Below, piece after piece: positions 18,650-25,269 of a stretch of 40,723 nucleotides of DNA. The stretch covers positions 1 through 40,723 of the forward strand of contig JAMCPG010000049.1 in the NCBI GenBank assembly GCA_023379845.1. The letters run 5' to 3'. This DNA comes from Thermoplasmatota archaeon. GTDB taxonomy: Archaea > Thermoplasmatota > Thermoplasmata > Thermoplasmatales > Thermoplasmataceae. The number at the start of each line of letters is the position of its first letter. Within the stretch, counting starts at the first letter, position 1. A program made the translations under genes and the position numbers. The notes under the pieces are model-generated. The model saw nothing but the letters and a program-made list of their open reading frames with translations, did no database searches and was not told the DNA's origin.

Positions 18650-19210
18650 TTATTTGCCGAGAGTATTCTTTTTATCCGCAATTGAATCAAACAACTTCGT
18701 TATCTCATCAACAGATTTACCCTTTGTCACCGGCATTATTTTATAAAATATTACCACGGCCGTGACTGAAAGCACTGCAAATACGACAAGGGACCCGGCG
18801 ATATGAATAGAACTGTCCATATAAGGGAAGATCTCTATTATCGCAAAATTAGAAATCCAGTCAATGAATGCTATAAGGGATGCAAGTGTCCCTCTGTATT
18901 CTGTTGGAAAATATTCGCCCTGTATAATCCATCCAGTACCGCCAACTCCAAATGCAAAGAATACTATGAATATAGAAATAGCCACTAGCATTCCCACGTC
19001 CTGTCCTGCGAACTTGAGTATCGCGCCAATGAATCCAAATAAAGCCATTCCACCGTAACCGATCAGTGCTAGTTTTCTTCTTCCAACCTTATCTATATAT
19101 TTAAAACCTATATATGTCGCAACGACGTTTACAACAGCGAAGATTGATGCAGCCTCAATAACAAAAATTTCTGACGTAACCGGGCTGGTAGTAGAGGAAA
19201 AAATGTGCAG
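18650..19210 (-). pseudogene. 3' part of an MFS sugar-porter-like gene split by the casposon
   Basis: This fragment encodes the last 180 or so residues of a major facilitator superfamily carrier. It shows the loop motif YIDKVGRRKLA between helices 8 and 9, then FGVGGTGWIIQGEYFPTEYRGT, typical of the sugar-porter C-terminal half (E-x-F-P-T-x-x-R). The frame is open right up to the casposon and reads through the target duplication as LHIFS. Joining it to the 5' part at 24374-25269, with one duplication copy removed, gives an unbroken junction and 481 codons in total, a normal length. The fragment alone lacks a promoter and start. Confidence 0.9.
19197..19210. repeat. left copy of the casposon target-site duplication
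   Basis: The 14 bases gaaaaaatgtgcag directly precede the left inverted repeat and recur exactly at 24374-24387 after the right one. A 14-bp duplication fits the 14-15 bp reported for casposons. Because the next base is g on both sides, a 15-bp reading is possible on one side. Confidence 0.93.
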
Positions 19211-19413
19211 GTGTGTAGTATTTATCCCACGTTTTGGGCGATTTATTCACTCATTAAAATAAAAGTCAGTCAATAATAATCATTAAAATAAAAGTCAGTC
19301 AATACTAATCCCAGTTCAAAGACAGAATCGTGCCTATTAAACCGCAAACAGTAAGCCGTTAGAGATGCAAATAATAGAGTCGGATTCAATATTTATTGGC
19401 TTATAGTTAAAAT
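19211..19413 (+). repeat. left terminal inverted repeat of the casposon (203 bp)
   Basis: Read inward from gtgtgtagtattt, this segment is the exact reverse complement of 24171-24373; I compared it segment by segment and found no mismatch. It contains two direct copies of a 25-bp word beginning tcattaaaataaaagtcagt (19251-19275 and 19280-19304, 29-base period). The last 21 bases also encode the final six codons and stop of the casposase. The ends are the likely casposase substrate. Confidence 0.95.
19251..19304 (+). repeat. paired 25-bp direct repeats in the left inverted repeat
   Basis: Two identical 25-bp units (19251-19275, 19280-19304) are separated by four bases. The same pair occurs mirrored in the right repeat (24280-24304 and 24309-24333). 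About 40 bases lie between the element tip and the first unit. The arrangement suits a pair of binding sites for the casposase or a replication protein. Confidence 0.7.
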
Positions 19414-20250
19414 GTCTGTAAATTCATTTAAAACTTCCTTTGTCTCATTCTCTATGGGTGCTATTGGCTTCAAGTATTTATTTATTTTATCTTCCCGAAT
19501 CAAATAATAGCCGTTTTTTGTTAGCTCAAAATCTGTTTGTTTTATTCTTTTCTCTTTAGCCATTTCTATAACTATATTGTCTATATTTCCACGTAGAAAC
19601 TCAATTAAATCGTAAGTGAGTGAAAGCTTGTTATAATTAGGTTCGTGCAAAAAAGAAGCTTGGTAATCATAGCCGTAATATTGAATTTGAGTAAGAAGGC
19701 GATGTTCGATTAAGCCATAATAGAAATTTAGAACGGCGTTGATAATATTAGTCGCTTTTTGATTAGATGCGAGATAAAAGCCTTTCCTACCAGAATAAGC
19801 ATAGCCATAGCTCGTTATCAAGTCTTGGAATCTCGCAAAATATTCGTTTGAAAAAACCGATTCTATATCGCTTGTAAGTAATGGTAGCTTATGTTTTCTA
19901 AGTATTTCTTGATATTTTTGCTTCTTAGCTTTTATTATTTCATCTGCAACCTTTTTTCTATTGTTAAGGTATAAGTCATATTGCAACACTCTATTACCGA
20001 AGTTAGCGTTATTGTTTTCTGGTATGACGTGATAAAGTATCTCTCCATTTAAGTTATGTAAGGTCATTGATATGCGTTTCAAGGCAAACAGCCGTAAGGC
20101 ATAGATTGAGATATAACCGCTTTTTGCGACTATCATTATGTTTGATATTTTATCCATTTCTTGAATTACATAGTCTTGCTCATTTATTTTGATATTCACT
20201 CCAGAAGCCGTTATTTTCACGGTTGGTTTAGACACAAACAATGTATTCAT
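19393..20250 (-). CDS. Cas1-family integrase of a casposon (casposase)
   Basis: The 285-residue protein follows the Cas1 plan. An N-terminal beta domain begins MNTLFVSKPTVKITASGVNIKI, aligning with the usual Cas1 start. A helical domain has Glu136 in NEYFARF, NAVLNFYYGLIEHRLL, His202 in SFLHEPN, and Asp214/Glu217 in YDLIEFLRGN. These are the E-H-D/E residues that bind metal and catalyse end integration. I chose ATG 20250 over one 12 codons upstream for this alignment and because ttatatttt lies about 22 bases before it. The last six codons lie in the left inverted repeat. It probably inserts the element at 14-bp-spaced staggered cuts. No cas2 or CRISPR is nearby. Confidence 0.92.
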   Translation of the reverse strand: MNTLFVSKPTVKITASGVNIKINEQDYVIQEMDKISNIMIVAKSGYISIYALRLFALKRISMTLHNLNGEILYHVIPENNNANFGNRVLQYDLYLNNRKKVADEIIKAKKQKYQEILRKHKLPLLTSDIESVFSNEYFARFQDLITSYGYAYSGRKGFYLASNQKATNIINAVLNFYYGLIEHRLLTQIQYYGYDYQASFLHEPNYNKLSLTYDLIEFLRGNIDNIVIEMAKEKRIKQTDFELTKNGYYLIREDKINKYLKPIAPIENETKEVLNEFTDILTISQ

Positions 20251-20303
20251 AATACCATAACAAAAACTAAAATATAAGGCTTTCAAGTCGTAAAGATGAG
20301 ATT

Positions 20304-20346
20304 AAACATATACATATTGAGAGACCAACTGGTCTTAAATGGTGAG
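20304..20346 (+). promoter_or_regulatory. casposon operon promoter with perfect palindromic operator
   Basis: Between the divergent casposase and ribbon-helix-helix genes lies catatacatatt (a TATA box, about 20306-20318). A perfect inverted repeat AGACCA-ac-TGGTCT follows at 20322-20335, then the ribosome site ggtgag at 20341-20346, before ATG 20350. A protein bound to the palindrome would sit between TATA box and start site and block transcription. The ribbon-helix-helix protein encoded next is the obvious candidate; this is inference. Confidence 0.6.
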
Positions 20347-20349
20347 AAA

Positions 20350-20505
20350 ATGAAAGTAGATAAAAGTGGAAGAATCGAAGTAAAGGTATGGGTGAACAAA
20401 GAGGTTGCCAATTTGTTTAAGGAATTGGCAAGAGACCACGGTATGACAAGGTCAGAAATGTTTGGTGATTTGCTGACTCAATATATCGCAGAAAGGGTGA
20501 GTTAA
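20350..20505 (+). CDS. ribbon-helix-helix DNA-binding protein of the casposon
   Basis: The 51-residue protein has a single ribbon-helix-helix fold: strand RIEVKVWV, helix NKEVANLFKELARDHG, turn, helix MTRSEMFGDLLTQYIAERV. This matches CopG/Arc-type repressors, which bind palindromes as dimers. The frame is open 18 codons upstream, but ATG 20350 is preceded by ggtgag and the upstream part covers the TATA box and palindrome. It is the first gene of the casposon operon, two bases before the next gene. It probably represses its own operon and perhaps the casposase. Confidence 0.8.
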   Translation: MKVDKSGRIEVKVWVNKEVANLFKELARDHGMTRSEMFGDLLTQYIAERVS

Positions 20506-20507
20506 AA

Positions 20508-20897
20508 ATGATTTGTAATATTTGTAAGAAGTACAGTAGCGATGCATCACAAGTTGGTATACGGCAATTTTACATTCACGGAAAACTAAGAAGCTTTGTT
20601 GTATGTTTAAAGCCTGAGCATCCAAACGCACTAGAAATATTGACGCAAAAGGTAGATACCGAAGAAAAAGCAATGATAGAGAGACAGAAAAAGATAGAAG
20701 AAGATGCCAAGAAGGTATTAGCTGAAGAAGAAAAAAGAAAAAGAGAATATGAAGAACAGATAGCAAGGGAAAAAGAAGAAGCTACTTATAAAAGGTCTAT
20801 GCATAACTTTGAACAGCTAACAAATTTGAATCCAAGAGCAATGGCTGAGATATTTAAAAGGCTAAAAGAAGCATACGAATCACAAAATAAAGAGTGA
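20508..20897 (+). CDS. casposon protein with N-terminal cysteine motif and long coiled coil
   Basis: The 129-residue protein begins MICNICKKY, with a further Cys and His (CLKPEH) 28 residues later, which could complete one zinc site. Residues 47-90 are a strongly charged Glu/Lys/Arg helix (EEKAMIERQKKIEEDAKK and onward) predicted as a coiled coil. A polar tail follows. No family recognised. It lies two bases after the ribbon-helix-helix gene and six before the next. Coiled-coil and zinc parts suggest a structural or protein-binding role, possibly in complexes with DNA. Confidence 0.75.
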   Translation: MICNICKKYSSDASQVGIRQFYIHGKLRSFVVCLKPEHPNALEILTQKVDTEEKAMIERQKKIEEDAKKVLAEEEKRKREYEEQIAREKEEATYKRSMHNFEQLTNLNPRAMAEIFKRLKEAYESQNKE

Positions 20898-20903
20898 GGC
20901 AAG

Positions 20904-21491
20904 ATGACAGTGTATCGATGTGATACTTGCTCATATCAAACGAGTCGATTATATAACCTAAACAGGCACAAAAAACGACATCTTAAGAATACTGAATTAA
21001 GAAGTGAGCAACTCAATGAGCAAGTGAGTGGTAGCTCAAAAGTTCTTAAAAATGAGCAAAAAGTTCTTAAAAATGAGCAAAAAGTTCTGAATCGAGTAGC
21101 TCCGAGTAGCTCGGAGATACTCAGTGAGCAACCGAGCAATGAGCAAATGAGTAAAAAACGAGCAGGTACAATCATCTTTGATTCAGATGAGCTTTTAAAG
21201 TTAACAAATAACGAAGAATATACAGCTGAGCAAGAACGATTGATAAGGGAAAAAGAACTTCCAAACCAAATCATAGATGTAAGTGAAAGATTGGCAAAAA
21301 CAACCAAACCATTTATAAAGAAAAACACTGAGAGAATAGAACCTAAGAATTCAAAAATTGGTCTTGGTTTACTTGCGTTAATATTGTCTTTGCTTTTCCT
21401 TCTTTTATTCTGGAACGATATTAAAAACTTCATTTCTGGATTTAAAAAAGGTTCGTTGGTTGGAAGCGATTTTACGATTGTAAGAGAGTGA
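20904..21491 (+). CDS. casposon protein with C2H2 zinc finger and one membrane segment
   Basis: The 195-residue protein opens with one C2H2 zinc finger (YRCDTCSYQTSRLYNLNRHKKRH, residues 4-26). A low-complexity middle follows, with VLKNEQK repeated twice, coming from a 21-bp tandem DNA repeat at 21038-21079. Near residue 150 comes one hydrophobic helix (IGLGLLALILSLLFLLLFW), with a short basic tail. It may tether DNA to the membrane, a role known for membrane proteins of protein-primed replicons; this is inference. It is part of the tight operon. It has no recognised family outside the finger. Confidence 0.75.
   Translation: MTVYRCDTCSYQTSRLYNLNRHKKRHLKNTELRSEQLNEQVSGSSKVLKNEQKVLKNEQKVLNRVAPSSSEILSEQPSNEQMSKKRAGTIIFDSDELLKLTNNEEYTAEQERLIREKELPNQIIDVSERLAKTTKPFIKKNTERIEPKNSKIGLGLLALILSLLFLLLFWNDIKNFISGFKKGSLVGSDFTIVRE
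21005..21170 (+). repeat. cluster of GAGCA words with tandem and palindromic repeats
   Basis: Within the coding sequence of the zinc-finger/membrane protein, the word GAGCA occurs eight times in about 165 bases, mostly as TGAGCA. The cluster includes a 21-bp tandem repeat (21038-21058 and 21059-21079) and the palindrome CCGAG-tag-CTCGG (21102-21114). The density is far above that of the rest of the element. It may reflect Ser-Glu-Gln coding bias or an iteron-like protein-binding region. Confidence 0.5.
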
Positions 21492-21496
21492 TTTAG

Positions 21497-21658
21497 ATGT
21501 CTGTTAGTGTGCTGGTATGTTATAGATGCGGTAGCGAAGATATAGAACTAATGAGAGAGAATAGCCATACTTACGTTTACCGATGCAGAGAATGCGGCTA
21601 TCGATTTGTAAAAAAGAAGGTTGGTAGTAAAATATGGCAAGACTACAAAAGAAACTAA
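21497..21658 (+). CDS. small casposon zinc-ribbon protein
   Basis: A 53-codon frame starts at ATG 21497, five bases after the previous gene, and overlaps the next gene by 25 bases. It has two CxxC knuckles, CYRCGSED and CRECGYRF, 26 residues apart, the pattern of a zinc ribbon such as those in transcription factors or primases. The tail is basic. Spacing and the zinc ribbon make it credible despite its size. A DNA- or polymerase-binding role is likely but not shown. Confidence 0.7.
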   Translation: MSVSVLVCYRCGSEDIELMRENSHTYVYRCRECGYRFVKKKVGSKIWQDYKRN

Positions 21659-22140
21659 AGCAATTATTAAATGACGGCTATTCTGCAAACAAGATAGCCA
21701 AGCTATTACATAAGCGGAAGCAAGATGTTTTAGCTGAAATTCGCAAGATACAAAACAAGCCTATAAATCCTAAAAAGATAACAAATCCTAAAGGCAGAAT
21801 TGGAAGCATTGAATTGGACTTACCTTCTAAGGCGTTTACTGAAGCTTTATATAAGCAAGGCTATCCTATTGAGTACATCGTTAAACTGGTAAACAAGAAG
21901 CATAGCGAGACTTCTAAAGCAAAGATAAGAAGGTATCTGAAAGAATACAAGAAAAACAATCCCGAAGCATTAGATAGCCATAACGCAAATATGCGATTAT
22001 ATAAGGCAATGGGAAAATACAAGCAACATATCGATGCAAAATTTTTCAGAGAAACAAAAGAGCACTATTTCCAAGAGTTTGATAGCCAATTTAAAGAAGG
22101 AAGCCCTACAATAGAGATAGATTTAGCAGAGGAAGGTTAG
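21634..22140 (+). CDS. casposon helix-turn-helix-like protein; candidate terminal protein
   Basis: The 168-residue basic protein has two helix-turn-helix-like segments: residues 8-35 (LKQLLNDGYSANKIAKLLHKRKQDVLAEI) and 68-102 (EALYKQGYPIEYIVKLVN, then a basic helix). An acidic C terminus follows. Each segment pairs a G-Y-S/P turn with a recognition-like helix, as in resolvase or sigma-type HTHs. It lies four bases upstream of the polymerase gene. In protein-primed replicons the terminal protein gene often sits beside the polymerase, so this is a candidate primer protein. Nothing in the sequence proves it, and it may simply bind the inverted repeats. Confidence 0.7.
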   Translation: MARLQKKLKQLLNDGYSANKIAKLLHKRKQDVLAEIRKIQNKPINPKKITNPKGRIGSIELDLPSKAFTEALYKQGYPIEYIVKLVNKKHSETSKAKIRRYLKEYKKNNPEALDSHNANMRLYKAMGKYKQHIDAKFFRETKEHYFQEFDSQFKEGSPTIEIDLAEEG

Positions 22141-22144
22141 AAGA

Positions 22145-24247
22145 ATGAAATTTTTTAATTCTATGTCGTCAATCAATGCCTTCGATACCGAAGCCCATTC
22201 TAATACTCTTAAGGTAATATGCGATGCATACGGTAATTACTATGAAAATGATAACAATCCAGATAATCTGTTAGATTGGTTGTTTACTTATGCTTGTGAT
22301 TTAAACTTCTTATACAACATTGATTATGACGCTTCTATAATTTTCCGTGCTATAATGCCTGAGATAGACAAAGAAGATAATGGCATATATCACTATAAAA
22401 GCTATGACATCTATTACATCAGCAACAAATCGCTTATGATTAAAAAACACGAATCTAAAACAAAAATAAGGACAGTAAGGATTTATGATATTGCTCAATT
22501 TTATAAGAACGAGAAAGGCTATCAGCCGTTAGATACAGTAGCAAAAGAAGTATTAGGGATTGGTAAGAATAATGAAGAATTAGAGATTAATAGGCAACAA
22601 ATAGGAGAGATTGAAGGCTATTATGAACAAAACCGTGAAAATATAATAAAATACTGCAAAAATGACGCATATATTACTATGTTATTAGCCAAGAAAAAGA
22701 TACAATCAATCATACCAGTATTGAAAGGTCAGATACCTAAAACATACAATAGCAGTGCTTCTATTTCTAAAGCCTATCTGTCAATTTTCCACGTAGATTT
22801 ACGCTATCAATATTACCGCTTGTTATCACAATTACCAGAATATAAGAAAGCGGTTAGGATAATTGAAAATTCTTATTTTGGCGGTATTTTCTATTTACAT
22901 AGTTTAGGCAAGGTATCTAATGTCTATGAATATGACATAAATTCAGCATATCCTTACGCAATAACACAATTATATAACCTAACAGACGCAGAAATTAGAT
23001 ATACTAACAAATATGAGAATGCTGACTATGGCTTTTATCACGTAAAAATTAGAAATTTAAGTGATTTGCCAATACATTACAGAACTGGTGCTACTGATAT
23101 AACATATATCAAGTCTAACGACTATGTAGAAAATTATTTTACTGGTGCTGAGCTTGATTATTTCAGAAAATACCATTCAAAAGACATACAGTTTGAGATA
23201 ATAGAAGGTATTGTAATCAATACAAAGAAGAAATTAGAATTTCCAGACTACAAAAAGCTATATCAAAAAAGAAATGAAATCAAGCAAGAAATGAAAGAAA
23301 AGAAAGAAATTGAAAAAATTTCAGGCATAAAATTAGGCTCGTTAGAAGACGATATGTCTCAGTGGTCTTACAAAACTGTATTAAACGCATCTTACGGTTG
23401 CTTCGCAGAACGTAAAAACGGTTATACAACGTTCACGAATCTGATATATGCTTCTTATATCACGGCTATAACACGAATTAAGATATATGAAATAATCGAT
23501 AAAGTTGGTTGGAAGCACATAAAAGCCGTAATGACCGATGCGGTATTAACAGACACTAAAATTGACGATGTAAATTTCAATAACAATGAGTTAGGTTGCT
23601 TTAAATTAGAAGGTTATTTTGACACAGTATGGTTGTATATGAATGGTATATACATTTCAAAAATTGGTAATAGAATTACATTACATAATCGAGGCTTCCC
23701 TTCTTTGACTAATTCCGACGACTTATTCAATGCAAAAGGCACAAAATTACGAATAACAAGAAAAATGAAGGTAATTAAGATAAAAGAAGGCATAATACAA
23801 CATAGAAAACAAGACATAGGAAAATTTACAACACAACAAAAAGAATTAGATTTAGAGGCTAATCGCTGGAAATACACGTTAGATGTTGATAAGTTGAAAT
23901 TCGAATACCTAAAAGACAATGAACTAATAACAGATTTTTCATATAACATTGAACTACAATTCAAATATACAGAAAAGCCTTTTGAAAAGCCGATAGATTA
24001 CAAGGCAATAAAAGATATGCTATGGAGATTGAAGAATTGGAGAATACCAGAAATTAAGCAATACAACATACAGAAAATTAATTATGAAGCAGAATTAAAC
24101 AAAATTGCAATTGGAGAACATAGATTAAGAGATTTTAAGCGATTCTACAAGCGTTATAGCAAGAACTTAGATTTTAACTATAAGCCAATAAATATTGAAT
24201 CCGACTCTATTATTTGCATCTCTAACGGCTTACTGTTTGCGGTTTAA
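22145..24247 (+). CDS. casposon family B DNA polymerase, probably protein-primed
   Basis: The 700-residue enzyme has a 3'-5' exonuclease (Exo I FDTEAH with Asp14/Glu16; Exo II N58-x3-D62; Exo III Y170CKND174). Polymerase motif A is YDINSAYP with Asp264, motif B is KTVLNASYG at 410-418, and a short motif C VMTDAV has Asp465. The first Asp of the usual DTD is replaced by Met463. About 140 residues separate motifs A and B, space for the TPR1 insertion of protein-primed polymerases. The size is also typical for that class (570-800). It should copy the linear casposon from its ends. The last 25 codons lie inside the right inverted repeat. Confidence 0.92.
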   Translation: MKFFNSMSSINAFDTEAHSNTLKVICDAYGNYYENDNNPDNLLDWLFTYACDLNFLYNIDYDASIIFRAIMPEIDKEDNGIYHYKSYDIYYISNKSLMIKKHESKTKIRTVRIYDIAQFYKNEKGYQPLDTVAKEVLGIGKNNEELEINRQQIGEIEGYYEQNRENIIKYCKNDAYITMLLAKKKIQSIIPVLKGQIPKTYNSSASISKAYLSIFHVDLRYQYYRLLSQLPEYKKAVRIIENSYFGGIFYLHSLGKVSNVYEYDINSAYPYAITQLYNLTDAEIRYTNKYENADYGFYHVKIRNLSDLPIHYRTGATDITYIKSNDYVENYFTGAELDYFRKYHSKDIQFEIIEGIVINTKKKLEFPDYKKLYQKRNEIKQEMKEKKEIEKISGIKLGSLEDDMSQWSYKTVLNASYGCFAERKNGYTTFTNLIYASYITAITRIKIYEIIDKVGWKHIKAVMTDAVLTDTKIDDVNFNNNELGCFKLEGYFDTVWLYMNGIYISKIGNRITLHNRGFPSLTNSDDLFNAKGTKLRITRKMKVIKIKEGIIQHRKQDIGKFTTQQKELDLEANRWKYTLDVDKLKFEYLKDNELITDFSYNIELQFKYTEKPFEKPIDYKAIKDMLWRLKNWRIPEIKQYNIQKINYEAELNKIAIGEHRLRDFKRFYKRYSKNLDFNYKPINIESDSIICISNGLLFAV

Positions 24248-24373
24248 TAGGCACGATTCTGTCTTTGAACTGGGATTAGTATTGACTGACTTTTATTTTA
24301 ATGATTATTATTGACTGACTTTTATTTTAATGAGTGAATAAATCGCCCAAAACGTGGGATAAATACTACACAC
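24171..24373 (-). repeat. right terminal inverted repeat of the casposon (203 bp)
   Basis: Exact reverse complement of 19211-19413. It contains the mirrored pair of 25-bp repeats (24280-24304, 24309-24333). Its inner 77 bases encode the final codons and stop of the DNA polymerase, in a different frame from that used by the casposase end in the left copy. Confidence 0.95.
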
Positions 24374-24387
24374 GAAAAAATGTGCAG
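24374..24387. repeat. right copy of the casposon target-site duplication
   Basis: The bases gaaaaaatgtgcag are identical to 19197-19210. On the minus strand both copies encode the residues LHIFS of the split transporter. Confidence 0.93.
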
Positions 24388-25269
24388 GCTTTGTATTATA
24401 ATTGGACCATAATAAAATGGAATATTTATGCCAGTGATTTGCTGAAACATCATGAAAAGCCCTACAATAATAAAAGCTCTCTTGACACCTGGTGTCATCA
24501 CTCTTTTCTTAGTAGTGCTTATGGGATATTCCTTTAGCAGTTCCTGCTCATCTGTTTCAATGCCTAGGGTCTTGAACGACTTTACGGCCGCTTCGTATTT
24601 GCCTTTACTTACAAGCCATCTGGGGGATTCTGGCATAACGAACCTAAATGCTAGACCTATTATCGCGGGTATTGCTGCAAAACCCAGAAGCAGCCTCCAA
24701 TCCAGTGTGAAAGCGCTTGAAGGAATGCCATAAAGAACCGCGAGTCATATTATGTACGCGCCAAGTATTCCGACGGTTATCATCCATTGCTGGAGTATCC
24801 CGAGACTTCCTCTCTTATTCTTTGGAGCCCATTCAGAAATATAAGAAGTTGCGATGGCCGAATCCGCGCCCACAGCTATTCCTATAATTGTGCGAGAGAC
24901 AAGGAGCATCAAAAGGTTGACACTTATAGCAGAAAGTATTGCCCCGAGCGTATAGAGAAATGCATCAAAAATGAGCATATACTTCCTTCCATACCTGTCA
25001 ATCAGAGATGCAGATACAAGAGCACCAGCTGCGGCTCCTAACGATACTCCAGAAAAAAGGTATCCTGTTATGAAAGGGCTTGTAGCTGATGAAATAAAGG
25101 ATTTAGGAAGAAATCCTTCGACTATGGCAATGTTTGTGGTATCATAACCAAACAAGAAACCTCCAACAGTAGCAAGCAAGGTTAAAAATCAATAGAACCT
25201 GCTTGCTTTGCTGTTATCAAGTCTGTCCAGGATTTTAGATTCGGCGATAGATTCCATCAGATCTGGCAT
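24374..25269 (-). pseudogene. 5' part of the MFS sugar-porter-like gene, with two in-frame TGA codons
   Basis: The fragment encodes the first 298 or so residues of an MFS sugar porter: LATVGGFLFGYDTTN in helix 1, DRYGRKYML in the loop 2-3 motif, PESPRWLVSKGKYE in the central loop and MFQQITGINIPFYYGP in helix 7. The ATG at 25269 follows a tataaatata box. Two TGA codons interrupt the frame, at codon 27 (25189-25191, where a Trp codon would fit) and codon 175 (24745-24747). TGA ends many other genes here, so recoding is unlikely. The casposon cuts the frame at codon 298-299. The gene is therefore dead both by insertion and by nonsense mutation. Confidence 0.88.

Follow-up and report, generated by a model that had tools for sequence, protein, structure and literature searches.

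Casposons are the presumed source of Cas1, the adaptation enzyme of clustered regularly interspaced short palindromic repeat (CRISPR) systems. Family 1 casposons are known from Nitrosopumilus, Nitrosotalea and Nitrososphaera (PMC4046053, PMC6563490), and a protein-primed polymerase is the defining trait of this family. Family 2 is represented by AciBoo-C1 of A. boonei, a host with a Thermoplasmatales affiliation, and by the element of M. mazei (PMC4046053, PMC6977970), and a single casposon-associated gene has been reported for 'E-plasma' (PMC10354927). Published elements have terminal inverted repeats (TIRs) of 25-602 nt and target-site duplications (TSDs) with a median of 15. Families 3 and 4 include bacterial and M. 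mazei elements. No protein-primed casposon outside Thaumarchaeota was found in the open-access papers searched. Here we describe a probable example in a contig of 40,723 nucleotides from an acid-loving Thermoplasmatota archaeon, the whole of which we call the window. We give a probability of roughly 0.9 to the reading that the region at 19211-24373 holds a complete casposon, that replication of this element starts at its ends with a protein primer, and that it is a member of a compact lineage in Thermoplasmatota with a polymerase distinct from the thaumarchaeal family 1 type. This type of polymerase is the main reason that the element matters, and it had not been remarked in an earlier, sequence-only reading that recognised a casposon at this place.

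The casposon is 5,163 bp in length and carries seven genes, including one for Cas1 and one for a family B polymerase. Its TIRs, located at 19211-19413 and 24171-24373, are 203 bp each and 100% complementary to one another, with GTGTGTAGTATTTA at the outer end of the left copy. They are bordered by two exactly matching copies of the 14-bp TSD GAAAAAATGTGCAG, at 19197-19210 and 24374-24387. These limits had been proposed from the sequence alone, and the same ones were returned by an independent finder of TIRs plus TSDs. As a positive control, this finder recovered with a 15-bp TSD the casposon of a genome (L120) that we take to be that of A. boonei. As the sequence-only reading also held, no CRISPR array, cas2 or cas4 is present within the element. 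Scans of the seven open reading frames (ORFs) against Pfam and NCBIfam gave no match to an HNH nuclease, Cas2 or Cas4 and no other integrase or transposase above cut-off, and models of resolvases and transposases showed only a weak helix-turn-helix (HTH) resemblance below it.

The repeats extend into coding sequence. The right TIR overlaps the 3' end of polB (24171-24247), and thus the C-terminus of PolB is encoded within the repeat, while the left TIR contains the last codons of cas1 (19393-19413). Within each TIR there are also two tandem repeats of 29 bp (19251-19308 and 24274-24331), to which a TIR-binding protein possibly attaches. The G+C content of the element is 32%, versus 44% in the flanks, where windows of the same size range from 41% to 47%.

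The cas1 gene (19393-20250, minus strand) encodes a protein of 285 amino acids with no fused domains and no C-terminal HTH extension. This length is counted from the ATG at 20250, which is likely to be the start codon in place of the TTG further upstream. The Cas1 domain is matched by PF01867 (E=1.4e-33) and, over cut-off, by the generic cas1 equivalog model TIGR00287, and in a 297-amino-acid reading the match extends to residue 272. All four active-site positions are kept, with E130, H202, D214 and E217 aligning to E141, H208, D218 and D221 of E. coli Cas1. The triad is Glu/His/Glu, with the Asp three residues ahead of the last Glu also retained; the residues named before were Glu, His and Asp/Glu. 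The Glu of 'LIEH' was considered as a catalytic residue and rejected; the column of E. coli E141 aligns to DIESV. The best match among solved structures is PDB entry 6OPM (E=8.8e-15 with the single sequence and 2e-93 with a casposase profile), which is labelled Cas1 and which we assume to be the M. mazei casposase structure of PMC6977970.

The divergent sequence of this protein and its match to a generic cas1 model could indicate a stray CRISPR Cas1 that was captured by a transposon. However, the CRISPR Cas1 proteins form one clade (support 99/95) that excludes the window Cas1 in a tree of 39 rows, in which CRISPR sampling is limited and most CRISPR rows are classed by tree position and length. 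Nesting of the window Cas1 within either CRISPR subclade is rejected by the approximately unbiased (AU) test, with p=0.022 and p=0.014. This tree was rebuilt without E. coli Cas1 because long-branch attraction had joined that sequence to the window Cas1. Moreover, the best solved match is a casposase, the element has neither array nor cas2 or cas4, and no other Cas1 was found in the 84%-complete metagenome-assembled genome (MAG), which together leave only a slim chance for capture from a CRISPR system. The identification as a casposon is based on the TIRs and the TSD, on the position of the Cas1 outside the CRISPR clade, and on an empty corresponding site in a relative. The last two results came from comparisons that the sequence-only reading had itself suggested.

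The polB gene (22145-24247, plus strand) has intact exonuclease motifs (FDTE, NFLYNIDYD and YCKND) and polymerase motifs (A, DINSAYP; B, KTVLNASYG; C, TDA). There is no matching model for its product in Pfam. PHROG 11768 matches it over 580 residues (E=4e-40), in keeping with its earlier assignment to family B, and tblastn matches it to the protein-primed polymerases of His1, His2 and ampullavirus. An AlphaFold model made with 16 sequences reaches a predicted local distance difference test score (pLDDT) of 77 and is good for residues 1-577, compared with a pLDDT of 38 when three rows were used. The top nine PDB fold matches of this model are all phi29 polymerase (E=7.7e-18), and its first viral fold match is His1. 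For the last ~115 residues the model is of low confidence, and nothing clearly corresponds to them in L040 and L041, two related loci discussed below. Judged from this model, PolB is of the protein-primed type.

Linear archaeal viruses such as His1 resemble the element in polymerase and gene size, and one possibility is that the region is an integrated linear plasmid or virus with protein-primed replication in which Cas1 is incidental. We regard this as very unlikely. There is no recognised capsid, ATPase or other integrase gene in the element, and the TIRs coincide exactly with the 14-bp TSD. In addition, Cas1 is the sole integrase, and it recurs together with PolB between TIRs and TSDs in L040, in two further Thermoplasmata elements (L110 and L117) and in family 1.

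When 84,980 species genomes were searched with an alignment of four PolB sequences, the matches were nine thaumarchaeal loci and one Thermoplasmata MAG, whose locus L131 is on the contig of L040. The L040 locus is a complete element of 4.53 kb with inverted repeats and a 14-bp TSD (GTTATGTACTTTAC), and it lies in another MAG, of a different family from the window host. Its gene order is the same as in the window, with Cas1 on the minus strand followed by a zinc finger gene, a zinc ribbon gene, a gene whose product carries FFEEGSP, and PolB. Both TIRs begin with GTGT in each of the two elements. The L041 locus likewise has Cas1 and a PolB of the window group. No other polymerase of this type is found in 117 genomes of the host's order.

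In the polymerase tree, L040 and L041 group with the window in a clade supported at 100/99, and the family 1 sequences are in a separate clade at 93/99. Because this polymerase clade, with its two other Thermoplasmata loci, stands apart from both family 1 and a second Thermoplasmata group described below, we conclude that the element represents a new lineage, which is compact and family-1-like in a sequence comparison with families 1 and 2. The earlier suggestion of a possibly new lineage is supported by the polymerase tree, the gene order and the TIR sequence, but the Cas1 tree cannot place it. Given the strong divergence of the Cas1, which the tree does not assign to a position among casposases, we refrain from proposing formal family rank.

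The thaumarchaeal loci from the scan include Nitrosotalea devanaterra, a published family 1 host (PMC6563490). Cas1 is also present at eight of the nine, and three have clear pairs of TIRs and TSDs that bound elements of 6.4-8.5 kb, with a weaker pair at a fourth. One thaumarchaeal contig (L140) has two protein-primed PolB genes and one Cas1, and it possibly represents tandem casposons.

Alternatively, the element could be a normal member of family 1 that was transferred from Thaumarchaeota to Thermoplasmatota, with no separate lineage involved. Both have a protein-primed PolB, a compact Cas1 without HTH, and small genes upstream of polB. Uniting the window Cas1 with family 1 in one clade costs nothing (p=0.508), and a union of the window, L040 and L041 polymerases with those of family 1 is not rejected (p=0.124). 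However, PolB identity between the window and family 1 is 24-28%, and the two polymerase clades are separate. The Cas1 proteins of family 1 form their own clade (99/99 in the 39-row tree), and a clade that adds all three window-group Cas1 proteins (window, L040 and L041) to them is rejected by a narrow margin (p=0.035). The TIR ends also differ (GTGTGTAG in the window versus AAAAATGGTTTACCCCC in family 1), and homology of the small genes is not demonstrated. Transfer of a family 1 casposon is therefore an unlikely explanation, although one with some weight, and we favour a distinct Thermoplasmatota lineage.

Directly upstream of polB is a gene (21634-22140, plus strand) for an HTH-containing protein of 168 amino acids (HTH_7, E=8.4e-5) with the motif FKEGSP. 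Its position makes the product a candidate terminal protein. Twelve positions, including EGSP, are common to this protein and its counterparts in L040 and L041, and in all three the EGSP motif is located at or near the C-terminus of the product of the polB-adjacent gene. Family 1 elements have a gene at the same place, with a product that ends in NPS or NPSP.

The remaining four genes, all on the plus strand, encode small proteins. The first (20296-20505) specifies a ribbon-helix-helix (CopG-like) protein of at most 69 amino acids, whose match to PF01402 (E=4.9e-4) falls 0.1 bit under the cut-off. It is followed by a gene for a 129-amino-acid protein (20508-20897) with an N-terminal CxxC and a charged coil but no family match of weight. 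Next is a C2H2 zinc-finger protein (20904-21491) of 195 amino acids with a C-terminal hydrophobic stretch (zf-C2H2_6, E=4.5e-4). The last is a zinc-ribbon protein (21497-21658) of 53 amino acids (Zn_ribbon_8, 7e-5), which has a counterpart at the same place in L040 (phmmer E=0.0018).

The element is located inside a major facilitator superfamily (MFS) sugar-transporter gene. It occupies neither ef-2 nor a tRNA gene, and the closest tRNA gene, for tRNA-Ser, is at a distance of 1.1 kb. Translation of the joined flanks assigns the 5' part of the MFS gene to 24374-25257 and the 3' part to 18650-19210, both on the minus strand. When the element and one TSD copy are removed, the frame is continuous except for two in-frame TGA codons, assigned to the 5' part. 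A genome from another genus of the same family (G054) has the uninterrupted ortholog as one open frame of 485 amino acids, and the joined flanks align with this gene without a break at the junction, with 75% of nucleotides identical. The two TGA codons (within 18650-25257) fall at Trp and Gly positions of this ortholog, and because of them the MFS gene is a pseudogene beyond the insertion itself. No motif common to the TSDs was seen on inspection by eye. The same GTDB family includes a genome that is presumably that of Thermoplasma acidophilum, which fits the description of the host as Thermoplasmatales-like.

Long perfect repeats are risky in assembly, and the MAG consists of 61 contigs, so the arrangement could be an assembly or binning artefact. 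This explanation has next to no credibility, since the flanks join into one MFS gene once a single TSD copy is removed, and another complete element with this organisation occurs in a MAG of a different family.

The sequence-only reading also described the insertion as recent, and this holds in part. The TSD copies are perfect and the ORFs of the element are intact, which fits a fairly recent insertion. Identical TIRs are weak evidence of age because the element may be copied from its ends, and protein-primed replication itself could keep them identical. The two further stops in the MFS gene likewise count against a firm statement on age.

There is a second Thermoplasmata group (L110, L117, L122, L124, L119 and L114) that also combines Cas1 with a protein-primed PolB, in convergent order. 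Bounded elements in this group (L110:5331-10065 and L117:8531-14281) have 14-15-bp TSDs and TIRs that start with GGGGGCACCCCCC. The polymerases of this group sit with those of tectiviruses (100/99), and placing them in one clade with the window-group polymerases is rejected (p=3e-13). Apparently, this group gained its protein-primed polymerase independently. In the Cas1 tree, L040 and L041 adjoin this second group (93/86) and not family 1. Although few sequences are involved, the pattern suggests that polymerases were exchanged between casposons and other replicons.

Other loci also touch on these elements. Three from the host's family (L044, L045 and L049, in G057, G034 and G039) encode Cas1 proteins of 408-434 amino acids that group with the A. 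boonei casposase, and thus family 2-like casposases are present in Thermoplasmataceae. Two Thermoplasmata loci, L042 (G180) and L043 (G325), have a protein-primed PolB without Cas1; the former, where the polymerase is of the His1/His2 type and an ATPase-like gene is predicted, is probably a provirus. Scans of IMG/VR with Cas1 and PolB, as single and aligned queries, revealed no casposon relative. The sole Cas1 match (L039) is a phage contig and was rejected as a chance match, and the sole PolB match (L130) is presumably Acidianus bottle-shaped virus. A search of plasmids gave type I-C CRISPR Cas1 only.

The sequence itself documents integration at a site with a 14-bp stagger, a Cas1 with its active-site positions kept and a polymerase of the protein-primed type. 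These features suggest how this casposon might propagate. The element would be copied as linear double-stranded DNA, with PolB initiating at the repeated GTGT ends on a hydroxyl of the terminal protein, for which the product of 21634-22140 is the most likely candidate. Sliding-back initiation is known from other protein-primed replicons, and a GTGT start of the TIRs would suit it. Initiation would leave the terminal protein on the 5' ends and the 3'-OH ends free. Cas1 would then bind the TIR ends and link both 3'-OH termini to the target at a 14-nt stagger, and fill-in would yield the TSD; the M. mazei casposase has been shown to use 3'-OH ends (PMC6977970). Roles in the control of expression or of end recognition are probable for the ribbon-helix-helix, zinc-finger and zinc-ribbon proteins.

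Several observations weigh against our interpretation. The element is present as one copy only, in one MAG (1.51 Mb, 84% complete, 61 contigs), and its transposition and the attachment of a terminal protein are predicted from the sequence. The candidate terminal protein shows no homology to its family 1 counterpart in a profile comparison, and a single-sequence match between them is weak (E=0.0027). The window Cas1 is a long branch that the tree does not place among casposases. Lastly, the L041 contig with Cas1 and PolB has no TIRs, and thus the lineage includes two complete elements only.

Our findings extend protein-primed casposons to Thermoplasmatota, where another casposon type alone was known from the open-access papers searched. 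They also extend them to a complete size of 4.5-5.2 kb, the smallest seen here. Because a minimal element combines an integrase and a polymerase with one candidate terminal protein, the proposed casposon life cycle can be tested directly, above all the idea that the DNA to be integrated is linear, with protein attached at the 5' ends and the 3' ends free. We see an even chance that a broader proposal holds. Protein-primed polymerases would have been gained more than once, with the window lineage and the second group as separate branches on a Thermoplasmata-type casposase, and the polymerase would be an exchangeable module. The window element would then be the founder of a fifth family, made up of minimal (4.5-5.2 kb) casposons whose mobile form is linear DNA capped by protein at the 5' ends.

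All casposon features open to a sequence test are present in the element. With its TIRs of 203 nt and TSD of 14 bp, it is within or near the values published for casposons. It is similar to family 2 in having a Cas1 integrase, TIRs and a TSD of 14-15 bp, and in its occurrence in Thermoplasmata. In contrast, family 2 has an RNA-primed PolB3-like polymerase, a C-terminal HTH on Cas1 and an HNH nuclease, none of which is present here, and the Cas1 proteins of presumed family 2 relatives have 396-434 amino acids rather than 285. The polymerase is homologous to those of His1, His2 and ampullavirus, but these are viral genomes without Cas1 or casposon integration. The second Thermoplasmata group combines Cas1 and a protein-primed PolB with TIRs and 14-15-bp TSDs in ~4.7-5.8 kb, and differs in its convergent Cas1 and PolB genes, in its TIR ends, and in a PolB that groups with tectiviruses Toil and Bee17. 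Family 1 resembles the window element in its protein-primed PolB, its Cas1 without fused domains, its TIRs and its TSDs of 13-15 bp, and in having several small genes just before polB. However, the conserved set of 3-4 small genes upstream of polB in family 1 has no demonstrable homology to the genes at the same place in the window. The window element is also found in another host phylum, Thermoplasmatota rather than Thaumarchaeota, has a PolB from a separate clade, and measures 5.16 kb, whereas the family 1 elements whose ends were located here span 6.4-8.5 kb.

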